NCBI RefSeq assembly: GCF_002933355.1
Contig: NZ_PDKU01000003.1
Span: 23,531 to 87,530 of the forward strand
Source of the DNA: Candidatus Pantoea edessiphila
Lineage (GTDB): Bacteria > Pseudomonadota > Gammaproteobacteria > Enterobacterales > Enterobacteriaceae
Reading direction: 5' to 3'
Length of the DNA: 64,000 nucleotides
Shown: positions 7,377 to 47,934 of the stretch, piece after piece
Position numbering within the stretch: position 1 is the stretch's first letter
Layout: the number at the start of each line of letters is the position of its first letter
Notes under the pieces: generated by a model
The model's input: the letters and a program-made list of their open reading frames with translations, nothing else
Told to the model about the DNA's origin: nothing
Databases searched by the model: none
Position numbers and translations under genes: made by a program

Positions 7377-7579
7377 TGAATTTAAAATAATTACCAATGA
7401 TTTTTATATTACAATATACATCAGTACAGTAAACTTTTAAGTGACAACGATCATAACTTACTGCATGATAATATATAATACGGCACTATTATGTAAATCT
7501 ATAACAATGGTATCTCTTTTCGCTAATGTTACCATAAAAAAAAAATTATTACATCTAATTATAATAAAAAATTATAAAT

Positions 7580-11899: not shown

Positions 11900-12913
11900 A
11901 TGCGCGTTTTAGGTATTGAAACTTCTTGTGATGAAACTTGTGTTGCAATATATGATGATAATATTGGATTGTTAACTAATGAAATATATAGCCAAACGGA
12001 ATTACATTCTTACTATGGAGGAGTAGTTCCAGAACTAGCATCACGTGATCATGTACAAAAAATTATACCATTGATTTCATCCTCTTTAAAAAAAGCTAAA
12101 TTAGAACCGTATCAACTTGATGGTATAGCATATACAGCAGGACCGGGTTTAGTTGGTTCATTGTTAGTTGGTGTAACAGTTGGCCGTACTTTAGCTTTTT
12201 CATGGAATATACCTGCTGTGCCAGTCCATCATATGGAAGGTCATATTATGAGTCCAATGTTAGAACATAATAATTTAACGTTTCCCTTTTTAGCTTTATT
12301 AATTTCTGGAGGACATACTCAATTAGTTAGCGTGAATGGAATTGGATCTTATAAAATAATAGGTGAATCACTAGATGATGCAGCGGGGGAAGCTTTTGAT
12401 AAAATAGCTAGGTTATTAGGTATTAAATATCCTGGTGGAGCTACTTTATCAAAAATAGCAAAAAATGGAAAAAAAAATCGATTTATTTTTCCAAGACCTA
12501 TGATTAATGATGATAGTCTTAATTTTAGTTTTTCTGGATTAAAGACATTTGCTGCAAATACTATTAATAAAAATAATAAAGATGATCAAACAATATCTGA
12601 TATTGCTCGTGCTTTTGAAGATGCAATCATAGAAACATTACTGATTAAATGTAGACGAGCACTAAAACAAACTGGCCTTAAGAAATTAGTCCTTGCTGGG
12701 GGAGTCAGTGCTAATTGTACTTTACGTAATAGAATGTCTGATATGATTACAGAGATTAAAGGGGAAATATTTTATTCCATTCCAGAATTATGTACAGATA
12801 ATGCAGCAATGATTGCTTATGTTGGTATGTTACGTATTAATACTGATAACTGTAAAGAACTAAGCATTACGGTTTATCCTCGATGGTCATTAACAGAGTT
12901 ATCTAGTATTTAA
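11900..12913 (+). CDS. tsaD: tRNA N6-threonylcarbamoyladenosine transferase TsaD
   Basis: TsaD transfers the threonylcarbamoyl group from its adenylate (made by TsaC) to A37 of tRNAs that read ANN codons. The 337 residues equal the E. coli length. The ASKHA-type fold shows [15 protein letters not shown] at 5-19, the metal ligands H111 and H115 in [17 protein letters not shown], and [12 protein letters not shown] towards the end. Its partner tsaC is at 62.3 kb in the same window; tsaB and tsaE are not in the window. Confidence 0.97.
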
Positions 12914-17635: not shown

Positions 17636-19228
17636 ATGTGTGATTCCTGTCTAAAAGAACTATTACGTCGTCGAACCTTTGCAATAATTTCTCATCCAGA
17701 TGCTGGTAAAACCACAGTAACAGAAAAAATGCTTTTATTTGGTAATGTAATTAATATGGCAGGTACAGTTAAAAGTAGGGGATCCAATAAATATGCTAAG
17801 TCCGATTGGATGTCAATTGAAAAAGAACGCGGTATATCTGTAACCACTTCTGTTCTACAATTTTCATATCTTGGTAGATTAATTAACTTACTAGATACTC
17901 CTGGACATAAAGATTTTTCTGAAGATACCTATCGCACTTTAACTGCAGTTGATTCTTGTGTCATGATAATTGATTCTTCTAAAGGTGTAGAAGAACGTAC
18001 TTGTAAATTAATAGAAGTTACACGACTGCGTGATATACCTATCATAACGTTTATGAATAAATATGACTGTGATGTAAATAATCCCTTCGATTTAATAGAT
18101 GAAATAGAAAGTAAGTTAGGTATTATTTGCACCCCAATTACTTGGCCAATAGGTTATAGTAAGTATTTTAAAGGTGTTTACAACCTTTATGAAGATCTTG
18201 CTTATATTTATAAAACAGGTAAAGGTAATATCATTAAACAAACAAATATTGTTAAAGGTTTATATAATTCTAACCTTGATAATGAAATAGGTAAAGAATC
18301 ATCAATACAATTACGCGAAGATATCAAATTAATTAGAAAATCTATTTGTGAATTTAATCATGAAGATTTTTTAAATGGAATACAATCACCGGTATTATTT
18401 GGTACTGCATTAGGTAATTTTGGCATTGATCATATACTTAATTTTTTAATTTTATGGGCTCCGTATCCGATGCCACGGACTACAGATTTGAGATTAGTTG
18501 ATTCAAAAGAAAAGCAATTTACTGGCTTTGTTTTTAAAATTCAAGCCAATATGGATTTAAAACATCGTGATAGAATAGCATTTATTCGTATAGTATCTGG
18601 AATATACAATACAGGAATGAAACTTTATCACGTTCGTATTAAAAAATACATAATTGTTTATAATGTTCTAACATTTATAGCAGGTAGTCGTTCGAATATA
18701 AAAAAAGCATATCCAGGTGATATTATAGGATTGCATAATCATGGCTCTATTAAAATTGGTGATACTTTTACGCAAGGTGAGAACATTAATTTCATAGGTA
18801 TTCCTAAATTTGCTCCTGAGATTTTTTTTATTGTACGTTCTAAAGATCCATTTAAAAAAAAACAACTAAATATTGGTTTAATGCAAATATCAGAAGAAGG
18901 TAATGTACAATTAATACGTCGCATTTATAATAACGATCTTATTATTGGAGCAATAGGTCAATTACAATTTGAAATTATTATTTCTCGTTTAAAGCATGAA
19001 TATAAAGTTGAAGCATCATATTCATATACTAATATTGCTACTATACGTTGGTTAGAGTGTAGTGATAATAAAATACTTAAATCTTTCCAAAGTGAATGCA
19101 ATAAAAATATTGCATTCGATAACAATGATAATTTAATTTATATTGTTTATAATATGGTTAATCTAAAGATAGTGCAAGAACGTTATCCGGAAATTTTGTT
19201 TTGCAAAACACATGAATATCAAATATGA
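17636..19228 (+). CDS. prfC: Peptide chain release factor 3
   Basis: RF3 is a translational GTPase that recycles RF1 and RF2 after peptide release. The 530 residues match E. coli (529). The G domain shows the P-loop SHPDAGKTT (19-27), the RF3-type switch region [28 protein letters not shown] (87-102) and NKYD (141-144; usually NKLD). The RF3-specific C-terminal domains follow. It contains an in-frame A9 tract near 18854-18862 that could be slippage-prone. The gene is not in its E. coli neighbourhood. Confidence 0.96.
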
Positions 19229-20990: not shown

Positions 20991-22126
20991 ATGATTTTTC
21001 TACCCCCTTTAAGCTTATATATTCATATACCATGGTGTATAAAAAAATGTTATTACTGTGATTTTAATTCACATCAATTAAAAAAAAAGTATCATATATT
21101 AAGTATGTCACCCATCTATTATTGGATCTTAAAAATGATTTATGTTTAATTGATCATAGAACAATATATACTGTTTATATTGGAGGAGGTACACCTAGTT
21201 TAATGGATATAGAAGCTATTGATATTTTAATCAATGGTATAAAGGAGAATCTAAATTTATCACTAGATGTAGAAATTACTATAGAAGTAAATCCTGGTAC
21301 AATCAATGTTGATCTTTTATCTTTCTATAAAAAAATTGGAATTAATCGTATTTCAATAGGTGCTCAAAGTTTCAACTCGAAACAGTTAATTTCACTCGGA
21401 AGAATTCATACTCCAGAAGCAATATATTATACAGTTAATTTAATTAAACATCTTGGGTTTAATAACTTTAATATAGATTTAATGCATGGTTTACCCAATC
21501 AATCAATTTCAGTAGCTTTAAATGATCTATACCAAACTATTATACTTGATCCTCCGCATATATCATGGTATCAATTAACTATTGAACCAAATACGTTATT
21601 TAGCGCAAAAAAAATAAATTTACCTAACGATAGTATTTTATGGAATATCTTTAAAGCAGGGCATGATTTACTAATTAATTATGGTTATCATCAATACGAA
21701 ATATCAACTTATGCTAAGTTAAATTATTATTGTAGGCATAATCTTAATTATTGGTATTTTGGTGATTATATTGGAATTGGTTGCGGTGCACATGGAAAAA
21801 TAACACAATTAAATGGTGAAATTATACGTACTATCAAAATTCGTCATCCTCAAAAATTTATGAAAGGGTTTTATCTTAGTAAGAAATACACTATTTCTGA
21901 TTTTGATAAACCACTTGAATATTTTATGAATAGATTTCGTTTAATAGACATTGTGTATCGTGGCGAATTTGAGTTTTTTACTGGTTTAAAAGAAGATTAT
22001 ATTCGTTCAAGCATAGATGTAGCAATATCAGAAAAATATATAATTGAAACAAAAAAATACTGGAAACTAACTACAAAAGGTAGATTATTCTTAAATGATT
22101 TACTAGAACTATTTTTTAATACATAG
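20991..22126 (+). pseudogene. hemW: hemW, haem chaperone (HemN-like radical SAM), frameshifted in an A9 tract
   Basis: The gene starts at ATG 20991 with LPPLSLYIHIPWCIKKCYYC, which carries the radical-SAM CxxxCxxC motif. This frame ends at a stop codon near 21142. From the A tract onward the HemW match continues in another frame (HLLLDLKND near 21113, then IYTVYIGGGTPS), open to the stop at 22126. The shift falls in the nine-A run at 21080-21088; one more A would join both halves and align with E. coli HemW without a gap. The downstream part keeps GAQSF, DLMHGLP, GIGCGAHGK and the intact C-terminus. It may be a young pseudogene, a sequencing error, or a gene rescued by RNA polymerase slippage on the A run. 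Confidence 0.88.
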
Positions 22127-22173: not shown

Positions 22174-22863
22174 TTATTTGTGTTCATTATTCTTTTCAAA
22201 TATTAAATCCCAAATTTTATGTCCTAAAATTTTTCCACGTTGTTCAAATTTAGTTATAGGTCTATTTTTAGATATTTTAGAAGATTGGTTTCGATAATTA
22301 TCTATACTATTAATTAACTTAATGATATAATGGGCATAATTTTCACAATCTGTTACTATATGAAATATAGAGCCGTGTGAATTGAGTTTTTTATTTACCA
22401 AATTAATGAACGGTAAATTTATAATTCTACGTTTATGATGACGAGTTTTAGGCCATGGGTCGGGACAAAATAATTGAACTTTATGTATTGAATTATCAGG
22501 AATCATATTTTCTAAGACTTCTGTTATATCATGGTATATAATACGCAGATTTCTTAATTCTGCTGTTTTTACCTCAGCAATACAATTACATACTCCCGGT
22601 AAGTAAACTTCTACCCCTAAAAAATTTTGATCTGGATTATCTTGTGCCATTGCAACCAAAGAATTACCCATCCCAAATCCAACCTCAATTATAACTGGTT
22701 TATTAGATTTAAATAATGCAGTGAAATTTATTAATTCAAATTTAAATTCAATACCAATTTCTAACCAGTAATTATTAATTGCTATTTGTTGTTTTTTAGT
22801 TAATTTTCTTCTTCTAATCATAAAACTACGAATTTTACGTAATAGGATAACATTATTTTTCAT
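22174..22863 (-). CDS. trmB: tRNA (guanine-N7-)-methyltransferase TrmB
   Basis: TrmB methylates N7 of G46 in the variable loop of tRNAs. The Rossmann fold SAM site reads EVGFGMGNSLVAMA, and the catalytic region is FCPDPWPKTRHHKRRIIN, followed by TKFEQRGKILGHKIWDL. I start it at ATG 22863 (MKNNVILLRKIRSF), giving 229 residues and matching the E. coli start MKNDV; the frame stays open upstream to 22935 with a hydrophobic low-complexity stretch that is probably not translated. It is divergent from yggX; mutY, which sits between them in E. coli, is absent. Confidence 0.93.
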   Translation of the reverse strand: MKNNVILLRKIRSFMIRRRKLTKKQQIAINNYWLEIGIEFKFELINFTALFKSNKPVIIEVGFGMGNSLVAMAQDNPDQNFLGVEVYLPGVCNCIAEVKTAELRNLRIIYHDITEVLENMIPDNSIHKVQLFCPDPWPKTRHHKRRIINLPFINLVNKKLNSHGSIFHIVTDCENYAHYIIKLINSIDNYRNQSSKISKNRPITKFEQRGKILGHKIWDLIFEKNNEHK

Positions 22864-23102
22864 ATATAAATTCATCAAAAGTAATATTATAAAGTTATAA
22901 AGTATTGAATATATAATTAATAAATTTCTGAACATTGTAATATATAAAATAATTTGATTATTTTATATATATTTTTTAAAAATAATTTTTAATTGGTATT
23001 ATTATAAGATTATAATAAGTAATATAACATATAAAATTTTATAATAAATAATGTAATTTTAAGTAAATTTATTACTTTTCAGTAAATAAATAGAGATTAA
23101 TA

Positions 23103-23465: not shown

Positions 23466-23891
23466 TTACTTTGAAAGATAACCTATAATCCAATCTTGTA
23501 AAATAATTGCAGCAGAATTAGAATCAATAGATTTTTTAATTAAAGCACTATATCCTCCACATCTAAATAATTCTGAACGTGCTTCTATAGTACTAAGTCG
23601 TTCATCTTGCATATAAACATTAATACTATATTTATCATTCAAATAATCAGCGAATTTTTTAGCACAATTAGTAATATGTTGTTCCGTTCCATCCATGTTT
23701 AATGGTAAACCTACAACAATGGCACTGGGTTGCCATTCTTTTATTATTTTTCCAATTTTTGTCCAATCAGGTATCCCTTCTTTTGATTTTAAAGAACATA
23801 TAGGACTTGTTGTGCCAGTAATTAATTGTCCAATTGCAATACCAATATTTTTAATACCAAAATCAAATCCTAATATGATTTGTATTGACAT
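23466..23891 (-). CDS. yqgF: Holliday-junction-resolvase-like protein YqgF (RuvX); 16S pre-rRNA processing nuclease
   Basis: YqgF has an RNase H-like fold; in E. coli it is essential and takes part in maturation of the 16S rRNA 5' end. The 141-residue protein has the first catalytic aspartate in GFDFGIKNIGIAIG, the AIVVGLPLNMDGTE loop, and the QDERLSTIEA motif with acidic residues, ending with AAIILQDWI. Its ATG overlaps the yqgE stop by one base (TAATG), so translation is coupled. Gene order gshB-yqgE-yqgF is as in E. coli. Confidence 0.95.
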   Translation of the reverse strand: MSIQIILGFDFGIKNIGIAIGQLITGTTSPICSLKSKEGIPDWTKIGKIIKEWQPSAIVVGLPLNMDGTEQHITNCAKKFADYLNDKYSINVYMQDERLSTIEARSELFRCGGYSALIKKSIDSNSAAIILQDWIIGYLSK

Positions 23892-24454
23892 TAAGCATGT
23901 CCTAAATCACTAGCTATATTATACATATTTACTCCGATATTTAAAGCTGCCTGACTCCAACGTTCTGCTGCTGGAGTATGGAACAGAATCGTACTGTTAG
24001 CTGGAGTAGTTAACCAAGCATTAGCCATTAATTCATTTTCCAACTGATTTTTCTCCCATGCACAATAACCAAGTGCTATTAATATATTATTTGGTTGTAA
24101 ATTTGACCCAATGACTTCTAATACGTCTCTTGATGTTGTAATAATAGTTGTATCTGATATATACACACTAGAATTAAAAACACGTTGTGCAGAATGTAAT
24201 ATAAAACCTCGGTCTTCAGCCAAAGGCCCACCTATAAATACTTGTTTATCAAGTGTTATATTTGGATCTCTATTGTTTATAGAAATATTTAATTTTTTCA
24301 GTATATCTTTTATACTTAAATTTCTTATAGGTTTATTAATAATTAATCCCATTGCTCCATCTACATTATGTTCACAAACGTATATAACAGAACGCTTAAA
24401 AAATGGGTCGCTTAATGATGGCATAGCTATTAAAAAGTGATTTTGTAAATTCAT
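23891..24454 (-). CDS. yqgE: UPF0301 family protein YqgE
   Basis: YqgE is a conserved protein of unknown function (DUF179). The start at ATG 24454 ([14 protein letters not shown]) gives 187 residues, the E. coli length; the open frame extends six codons further upstream. The family signatures are [29 protein letters not shown] and [16 protein letters not shown]. It is translationally coupled to yqgF and follows gshB after 81 bp. Confidence 0.94.
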
Positions 24455-24535
24455 TATTAGGTAATATACCAAAAGTAACCTAGATCAGAATAGGTATTCA
24501 GTTATAAAAAATTATTAAATTTGTGTTAAATAATC

Positions 24536-25796: not shown

Positions 25797-26774
25797 TTAT
25801 AGTAATTTTTTTTCAGCAAGATCTAGAGTGAAGTAACTAAAAATGATATCTGCACCAGCGCGTTTAATTGAACCTAAACTTTCTAATATTGCTTTGTTTT
25901 CATCTATTGCACCTGCTTTAGAAGCAAATTTTATCATAGAGTATTCCCCACTCACTTGAAAAGCAGCTAGTGGTAGTTCAGTTTTTTCACGGATATCACG
26001 TAATATATCAAGATAAGCACCTGCTGGTTTTACCATTAATGCATCTGCACCTTCATTCATATCAATTAAAGATTCTCTAATAGCTTCTCTACGATTCATT
26101 GGATTAATTTGATAAGTGTCACGATTAGATTCATAATTGATTTTTGTTGCTTGTCTAAAAGGACCGTAAAAAGAAGATGCAAATTTAGTAGAATAAGAAA
26201 TTATTGCCGTCTGATTAAATCCAGATAAATCTAGTGCTTTACGTATACTTTGTACTTGTCCATCCATGGAAGCTGAAGGTGCAATAAAATCAGCACCTGC
26301 TGCTGTTGCTACTACTGCTTGCTTACATAAATTAATTAATGTTTGATCATTATCAATATTATTGTTATATATAATTCCACAATGTCCGTGAGTAGTGTAC
26401 TGACAAAAACAAGTATCAGATATTAATACCATTTCTGGTACTGTATGTTTACATGTACGAATAATGCGTGCTATTAAACCATTTTCATTCCATGTATCAC
26501 TTCCTGTATCATCAGTATGATGAGATATACCAAATAATAATACTATATTAATTCCCGCTTTAGCTATACGTTCTATTTCATATGCTAATTTTTTTTCAGG
26601 AATACGCATGATTCCAGGCATAGTTGTTATTTCTTGATAATCAGATAAATTTTCTTCAACAAAAATTGGAAAAACCAATTTATTTAAACTAAGATTAATT
26701 TCTTGAAAAGCTTGACGAATAAAAGCATTAATGCGTAATCTTCTTGGACGCTGATGTAAATTAATTATTTTCAT
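25797..26774 (-). CDS. hemB: Delta-aminolevulinic acid dehydratase (porphobilinogen synthase)
   Basis: HemB condenses two 5-aminolevulinate molecules to porphobilinogen in haem synthesis. The start at ATG 26774 ([14 protein letters not shown]) gives 325 residues against 324 in E. coli; the frame runs nine codons further upstream. The zinc-site cysteines are in [14 protein letters not shown], and the two active-site lysines are in YSTKFASS and MVKPAGAY. The gene is out of its E. coli context. It suggests that haem synthesis is at least partly retained, consistent with the nearby hemW remnant. Confidence 0.96.
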
Positions 26775-27119
26775 TATTTTATGAATTATTTTATTTAACA
26801 ATATATTATAAATAAATTGTAATTTTATTATTTAATATTAAAATATTATGTTTCAAATCTTGTTTCATTATCAACGATAATAGTTTAATTTATGTTAATT
26901 GATAAATTTTATTTAGGGTAATTCAATGAATAATCCTTGTATTAAATAAAATCACATTTTGTACAATTTTGAGTTGTAATAAATATCAATATATACTAAA
27001 CAATAGATAATTATAGTATTGTATTAAAATAAATTGATAATCAGAACTATATTTATGTAATAGACAATATGTGTCAATGAAATAATATTTTCATATATAA
27101 CTATATTTAATGGTATTAT
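26775..27119. other. AT-rich spacer between hemB and rsmD
   Basis: These 345 bases hold no visible gene or RNA; they include the upstream region of hemB. Confidence 0.45.
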
Positions 27120-40003: not shown

Positions 40004-40390
40004 ATGAATTACAATTTATTAGTAATGGGACCTCCGTATGGTACTCAGAATGCAACTAGTGCTTTATTATTTGCTCAGGCATTATTGAAAGCGGGTCACA
40101 ATCTAAAAAGCATTTTTTTTTATAGGGAAGGTGTGTTAAACGCTAATCAATTTATCACAATTCCTCATAATGAATTTAATATAATCCATGAATGGCAAAA
40201 TCTTAATAGAACACAAGGTGTGCTTCTAAATATATGCATATCATCAGCTTTCTATCGTGGTATATTAGATACACCAGAATCTGAACATCTACACTGCTCT
40301 TCAGGTAATCTTCAATCGGGTTTTAATTTTAGTGGGTTGAAATCATTGGCTGAAGCAATTGTAAATTGTGATAGAGTTGTACAGTTTTGA
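40004..40390 (+). CDS. tusD: Sulfur transferase subunit TusD
   Basis: TusD relays persulfide sulfur from TusA to TusE for 2-thiolation of wobble uridine-34 in tRNAs for Glu, Gln and Lys. The 128 residues equal the E. coli protein. The catalytic C78 is present in LLNICISSAFYRG, and the GPPYGTQNATSA start and NCDRVVQF end match. Its stop shares a base with the tusC start (TGATG). First gene of the TusBCD hexamer operon. Confidence 0.96.
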   Translation: MNYNLLVMGPPYGTQNATSALLFAQALLKAGHNLKSIFFYREGVLNANQFITIPHNEFNIIHEWQNLNRTQGVLLNICISSAFYRGILDTPESEHLHCSSGNLQSGFNFSGLKSLAEAIVNCDRVVQF

Positions 40391-47017: not shown

Positions 47018-47623
47018 ATGGAATTAGTATTACAAGATGCCCAAGGGACTATGAATGTTTCTGAAACCACTTTCAGTTGTTCTTTCAATGAAGCATTAAT
47101 TCATCAAGTTGTTGTTGCTTATGCATCAGGAGCTCGTCAAGGAACTCGCGCACAAAAAAACAAGTCAGAAGTAAGTGGTTCTGGTAAAAAACCTTGGCGT
47201 CAGAAAGGTACCGGTCGTGCACGTGTAGGTTCTATAAGAAGTCCTCTATGGCGTTCTGGTGGAGTAACTTTTGCAGCAAAACCTCAAAACCATAGTCAAA
47301 AAGTTAATAAAAAAATGTATAAGAGTGCATTAAGAAGTATCTTTTCTGAACTAATACGTCAAGATAGATTGATAGTTTTTAAACATTTTGTCATAGAATC
47401 TCCGAAAACTAAATTATTATTACAAAAAATTAAAAATTTAGCTATCAGAAACATACTTATTATTACAAGTACATTAGATAAAAACTTATTTTTAGCCGCT
47501 CGTAATTTATATAAAGTTAATATAAAAACTGTAATAAATATTGATCCTATTAGTTTAATTGTTTCTGATAAAATCATTATAACATCTGATGCAATGAAGC
47601 AAGTTGAGGGTATTTTAGAATGA
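47018..47623 (+). CDS. rplD: 50S ribosomal protein L4
   Basis: L4 lines the peptide exit tunnel and, in E. coli, also represses the S10 operon and inhibits RNase E. The 201 residues equal the E. coli length. The tunnel loop [21 protein letters not shown]...[11 protein letters not shown] is intact. Its stop codon overlaps the rplW start by 4 bases (ATGA), so the two are coupled. Confidence 0.97.
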
Positions 47624-47934
47624 TTTGTAAAGAACGTTTTTTTAAGATAATACGCAGGCCGCACTCTTCTGAAAAGACATCGTTCTTAGTTGAAAAGACT
47701 AACACTATTGTACTTAAAGTAGCTAAAGACGCTAATAAAAAAGAAATTTTTTCAGCTATTGAAAATATTTTTGAAGTAAAAGTTAAAAATGTTAATACAT
47801 TAATTGTTAAAGGTAAAATAAATAAAATTAAAAATCAACGAACACATAAGAAGAATCAACGTGAAAATTGGAAGAAAGCTTACGTTACTTTAAAAAAAGG
47901 TCAACACTTAGAATTTATTGGCGGTTCTGAATAG
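47620..47934 (+). CDS. rplW: 50S ribosomal protein L23
   Basis: L23 lies at the exit-tunnel mouth and is the docking site for trigger factor and SRP. The 104-residue protein (E. coli 100) has the start [16 protein letters not shown], the segment [16 protein letters not shown] and the ending [17 protein letters not shown] few extra basic residues occur near 70-85. Confidence 0.96.

Follow-up and report, generated by a model that had tools for sequence, protein, structure and literature searches.

When the coding frame of a gene is one base short in a homopolymer, has the gene been lost, or is the shortfall made good when the gene is expressed? This question is raised by hemW in a 64,000-nucleotide stretch of Candidatus Pantoea edessiphila (contig C7, positions 23531-87530; hereafter the window), which belongs to a genome of 837,119 bases in 12 contigs. 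The genome (G000) is probably that of strain SoEL, listed in Table 1 of the available portion of PMC8032781 as the symbiont of Edessa loxdalii. A previous sequence-only reading had proposed that hemW in this window is split by a one-base deficit in a run of nine A residues, and that either the decay must be recent or the message must be corrected. Here, the gene was compared with its counterparts in the congeners SoEE (G001), SoET (G002), SoEO (G003) and SoEX (G004), and in G005, which appears to be the genome of the Brachystethus symbiont.

The hemW frame is interrupted once, at an A9 tract

The frame of hemW in the window was assessed against congener HemW proteins and the profile TIGR00539. 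Frameshift-aware alignment of the intact SoET HemW (residues 1-374 of 378) with the window returned a single event, one base short, and placed it at the A9 tract (Table 1), which confirmed the proposed split. The first ORF comprises 52 codons, of which codons 34-52 form the out-of-frame tail and the stop lies at 21147-21149. By reading, this frame carries the radical-SAM CxxxCxxC motif as C-IKK-C-YY-C; thus, the earlier placement of the motif in the first frame stands, and the 46-50 codons that had been assigned to that frame shrink to ~33 conserved ones.

The earlier count of about 335 stop-free codons downstream proved accurate, as the ORF at 21122-22126 has 334 codons counted from TTG and the frame is open over 352 codons in all. 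Neither the ORF list nor the frameshift-aware alignment contained a further stop or frameshift in the downstream frame. We take a CxxxCxxC cluster motif together with an HNxxYW motif to be the motifs of HemW; HNLNYW was found by reading in the second frame, so that it shares a chain with CxxxCxxC only if the frame is corrected. ORF 21122-22126 alone scored 337.7 bits against TIGR00539 (cut-off 205.4; profile positions 39-361 of 361), and residues 7-33 of the first ORF matched profile positions 1-27 with an E of 3e-10. As the curated cut-off is exceeded by the downstream piece alone, the product is, by profile match, the heme chaperone HemW (TIGR00539), which it resembles in this score, far above the cut-off, and in the CxxxCxxC of its first piece, and from which it differs in that its coding frame is split at the A9 tract.

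Table 1. Parts of hemW in the window and genes with a frame broken at an A tract in the genus. Coordinates are window positions except where a genome and contig are given.
Feature	Coordinates	Strand	Broken in	Remarks
hemW, first frame	20991..21149	+		ATG start, ~33 conserved codons, then 19-codon out-of-frame tail, TAA
hemW, A9 tract	21080..21088	+		a single frame would need one more base
hemW, downstream frame	21089..22126	+		346 codons including stop; GGGTPS and HNLNYW present
hemW			G000, SoEO	
accA			SoEE, SoET, SoEX	A10
rluD			G000, SoET, SoEX	A10; in frame in SoEO (A11), SoEE (A7) and G005
ygfA			G000, SoEE, SoEO	A10 in G000 and SoEE; SoEO (A9) one too long or two short
pdxA	G000:C6:84541		G000 only	one A short at A9
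rlmB			SoET	
dusA			SoEX	
yhbP			SoEO	run only A8; three genomes examined

The same tract is broken in a second genome

hemW was present in all six genomes and lay in a single frame in four of them. The tract of G000 reads TT-A9-GTATC, and that of SoEO, which comes from a separate assembly, reads TT-A10-TATC and lacks one A at the same place; both sides of the break are intact in each of the two. SoEX has TT-A10-GTATC and is in frame, as are SoET, SoEE and G005, in which the run is interrupted. Identity to the downstream piece of the window was 72% in SoEO, 69% in SoET and SoEX, 67% in SoEE and 57% in Ca. P. carbekii.

A tree of 63 genes (15,924 columns) placed the genomes as (SoEO,(G000,(SoEE,(SoET,SoEX)))) with UFBoot values of 99-100, and a 21-gene tree gave the same branching order with weaker support. 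Since the two genomes with a broken hemW are not sisters in the 63-gene tree, their shared state indicates either that the frame broke twice or that it broke once long ago and was restored once. A sister relationship of G000 and SoEO, through which a single hemW break would have been inherited, was rejected for the 63-gene data (p 0.0045 in an AU test of five topologies, with a program warning that the replicates were too few).

Two neighbours of hemW have decayed in SoEO (G003:C7 near 46250 / 47609-47929), namely trmB, beside hemW, of which only residues 104-167 align, and the nearby yqgE, with five events. Both genes, named by reading, are open on the minus strand of the window, at 22174-22935 and 23891-24472, respectively.

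The downstream part of hemW evolves at ordinary rates

The downstream pieces of hemW were compared with each copy read in its own frame, and the yardstick consisted of the 74 intact genes of its contig with at least 100 columns, taken from 78 five-way orthologs. Between G000 and SoEO, dN was 0.188 and dS 0.812, and the pN/pS of 0.335 fell at the 61st percentile of the 74 genes. The shares of the tree taken up by the terminal branches stood at the 28th (G000) and 31st (SoEO) percentiles, and a codon model, applied to hemW only and with the transition/transversion ratio left at 1, gave an omega of 0.129. The dN/dS comparison with relatives that had been suggested as a check on the sequence-only reading thus returned ordinary rates and no relaxation, and neither pN/pS nor branch share revealed, against this yardstick, an acceleration of the downstream part in either broken lineage.

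Tract breaks recur in other genes of the genus

The scan for breaks covered four G000 contigs, 396,654 bases in all, and the corresponding contigs of SoEO and SoEX, and yielded 2,745 alignments, of which 2,566 were usable after filtering. SoEE, SoET and G005 were outside the scan targets, so the break counts for these three genomes are lower bounds. Internal single-event breaks were found at 14 places, 10 of which fell on coding-strand A runs of at least 8; as A runs of at least 9 are rare in coding DNA (33 in the 330,696 bp of coding sequence in the G000 sample), this placement goes beyond chance. The four breaks away from A tracts were each supported by one query genome and are, we think, differences in ORF calling. 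Coding T runs of at least 9 amounted to 5 per genome sample, so that the absence of broken T tracts says little.

The broken genes were named by NCBIfam and then traced across the genus, which gave a total of 8 genes and 15 gene-by-genome breaks (Table 1), 14 of them one base short and one, ygfA in SoEO, of the opposite sign. The pdxA frame was unbroken in the relatives, the G005 copy being cut by a contig end. In ygfA, the gene for 5-formyltetrahydrofolate cyclo-ligase, the break is ~28 residues from the start of the protein and is therefore weak evidence. The dusA gene had one tract break in SoEX, many stops in the sister genome SoET and no match in G000, and its tract break is possibly a step toward loss. 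Both this gene and yhbP, with a run of A8 only, speak against rescue of all the broken genes. Downstream pN/pS was on the high side in rluD (70th-97th percentile over six pairs, the top two of which include the in-frame SoEE copy) and in rlmB (69th-97th percentile, and 77th-97th for the three comparisons that involve the broken SoET copy), and such values were seen in pairs of intact copies too. The branch shares of the broken copies were not raised (16th, 28th and 38th percentile for rluD, 39th for rlmB and 54th for pdxA).

The strongest case in the set, judged from the sequences, is accA, a gene that is essential in E. coli. In SoEE, SoET and SoEX, which form a fully supported clade in the 63-gene tree, it lacked one A in the same A10 tract and had no other event. 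Downstream of the break, SoET and SoEX differed by a dN of 0.066 and a dS of 0.787, with a pN/pS of 0.13 (20th percentile), and the pN/pS of SoEE-SoEX and SoEE-SoET lay at the 31st and 30th percentiles, with dS ranging from 0.79 to 0.89 among the three genomes. The branch shares of the broken copies were at the 3rd, 22nd and 65th percentiles, and accD was uninterrupted in all six genomes. One break inherited through two splits while constraint stayed normal is hard to explain without correction, and accA would probably serve better than hemW as a test of slippage.

Correction at expression as the probable explanation of the hemW break

Overall, we estimate at roughly 0.6 the probability that hemW is a working gene whose A9 shortfall is corrected during expression, most probably through slippage of RNA polymerase. 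The gene is one A short in two genomes, and its remainder is intact and evolves normally, so its message is likely to be corrected during transcription. In this mechanism, RNA polymerase would slip on the A9 and add an A to some hemW transcripts; translation of the resulting A10 transcripts would give complete HemW, in which the cluster motif and the radical-SAM core are joined in one chain, and unslipped transcripts would yield a 52-residue dead-end peptide. The occurrence of such correction, its transcriptional rather than ribosomal nature and the heme-chaperone function of the product are all predicted. What was found in hemW corresponds to a slippage-rescued gene in that there is one indel only, it lies within a long A tract, and constraint downstream of it is ordinary. 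Of the two outcomes that the sequence-only reading had left side by side, correction is favoured over recent decay by the break at the same tract in SoEO, the lack of a rate rise and the clade-wide break in accA.

That reading had also pointed to a rescue of this type in Buchnera and Blochmannia, for which precedent is indeed found in the available portions of PMC5009743 and PMC3017870. The former reports that 12-50% of transcripts are corrected at such tracts in one aphid and one ant endosymbiont. The latter, which cites Tamas et al. 2008 and Wernegreen et al. 2010 on genes frameshifted at poly(A) tracts, reports 8, 4 and 4 of them for three genomes of Blochmannia and describes no unusual acceleration in the four that were tested. 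Compared to those genes, as they are described in this portion of the source, the present ones share an AT-rich reduced genome, a single indel in a long A tract with the rest intact, breaks that are common or recurrent between species, and no clear acceleration; they differ in belonging to Pantoea-named stinkbug symbionts, in being other genes, and in being known from DNA alone.

The main rival to RNA-polymerase slippage, which we regard as unlikely, is -1 frameshifting by the ribosome on A_AAA_AAG (A_AAA_AAA in SoEO), which would give the same full-length HemW while the A9 message stays as it is. In the first frame, the hemW tract reads TTA AAA AAA AAG TAT and contains A_AAA_AAG, a heptamer at which, in the available text of PMC5009743, E. 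coli ribosomes shift far more readily than at A_AAA_AAA or at three other heptamers, and which is the site used in dnaX. In addition, 14 of the 15 breaks run in the direction that such a shift would mend, and the accessible part of PMC8254509 favours ribosomal correction at an oligo-A tract of chloroplast atpB, while leaving room for slippage. The hemW tract shares with E. coli dnaX an A_AAA_AAG in the first frame and the direction, -1, of the shift that it would need. Unlike dnaX, it has no downstream stem, the 80 and 51 nt after the G000 tract folding no better than shuffles (z of 0.51 and 0.87), and no upstream Shine-Dalgarno-like stretch, none being found by reading in 21060-21079; moreover, the shift in hemW would restore the protein and not shorten it. 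For SoEO hemW the fold gave a z of -0.42, a partial result because it covers the sequence from ~27 bases after the tract onward. SoEO also lacks the G and carries the weaker A_AAA_AAA, and its ygfA break has the wrong sign: with one A in excess or two missing, it would be left unmended by -1 ribosomal slipping, whereas slippage of RNA polymerase, which works in both directions, could mend it.

Next, and less probable again, comes a recent pseudogene, hemW having been broken lately and independently in two lineages with its decay still to come. Long A tracts are mutation hot spots, G000 and SoEO are not sisters, dusA couples a tract break with decay, and plain pseudogenes do exist in these genomes, for example trmB beside hemW in SoEO and a SoEX gene with 6-7 events. 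Against this, the signs of a pseudogene that were sought in hemW, several disabling changes and faster evolution, were absent, the gene showing one event and no acceleration. In a neutral simulation of 340 hemW codons of G000, which used substitutions at the four-fold base frequencies of that genome and no indels, and thereby favoured a pseudogene, the frame stayed open in 38% of cases at 0.01 substitutions per site, in 5% at 0.03 and in 0 of 2000 at 0.1; the outcome for SoEO hemW was nearly identical. Synonymous change per hemW lineage is estimated at ~0.4 per site, half of the dS of 0.81. Because the open frame was lost so fast in the simulation, this estimate limits the age of a hemW pseudogene to less than ~7% of each lineage, and both breaks would need to have occurred within that final span. 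Like luck would be required in rluD and ygfA, with three genomes each, and a recent origin is a misfit with accA, in which the break is common to three genomes that are well separated in dS and have low pN/pS.

Two further explanations are very improbable. Both ORFs of hemW are open, as they would be if the 52-residue peptide acted in trans with a downstream protein that is started internally, but the first downstream start is the TTG at 21122, the next ATG comes only after GGGTPS, and G000 and SoEO agree in neither the length nor the sequence of the first ORF's tail. Homopolymers are the classic site of assembly error and the evidence is at the assembly level, but the available portion of PMC8032781 states that its own genomes were sequenced by Illumina MiSeq and gives mean coverages of 96x (SoEL) and 206x (SoEO) for genomes of an earlier study, and the presence of tract breaks with otherwise clean frames in 5 of 6 separate assemblies makes such an error unlikely.

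Beyond the correction of hemW by RNA-polymerase slippage, we tentatively consider, at somewhat less than even odds, that correction at long A tracts in the Edessa stinkbug symbionts is so good that the DNA frame at these tracts drifts almost neutrally and the genus depends on recoding for the production of core enzymes. On this broader reading, near-neutral tract drift would be reflected in the tracts of hemW, rluD and ygfA, which flip state between species, and in the central gene accA, which has stayed broken through two splits.

Heme context and implications

Ferrochelatase hemH scored above its cut-off in five of the six genomes, including G000, and hemB lies in the window at 25797-26801 (ORF by reading). 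No HemN above cut-off was found in any of the six genomes; besides hemW there were three weak matches, none of them in G000. This pattern would fit a retained role of hemW in heme use.

A protein search with the hemW piece returned the HemW of SoET, SoEX and SoEE first, and none of the best 120 matches exceeded 69% identity. The HemW proteins of G000 and SoEO were missing among these 120 matches, which suggests that automatic annotation drops tract-broken genes.

The titles and abstract openings of the literature searched held no report of slippage in Edessa symbionts, and in the available portion of PMC8032781 the word 'frameshift' is absent and 'slippage' is confined to the reference list. 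Correction at A tracts is of a kind known from Buchnera and Blochmannia; the lineage and the genes would be new. The break in hemW is real and non-random and appears to be retained, and is best explained by correction at expression. If this is true, tolerance of A-tract frameshifts arose in another reduced lineage, in which it extends beyond hemW to RNA modification and, with accA, to central metabolism. As one tract can be broken in some species and in frame in others, the efficiency of correction would be directly testable.

Other long runs in the window are located at 7536 (A10), at 12469, 18854, 27905 and 61915 (A9) and at 40113 (T9). The A9 runs at 18854 and 27905 fall within open genes, identified by reading as prfC and ftsY, where minor frame-shifted transcripts could naturally arise.
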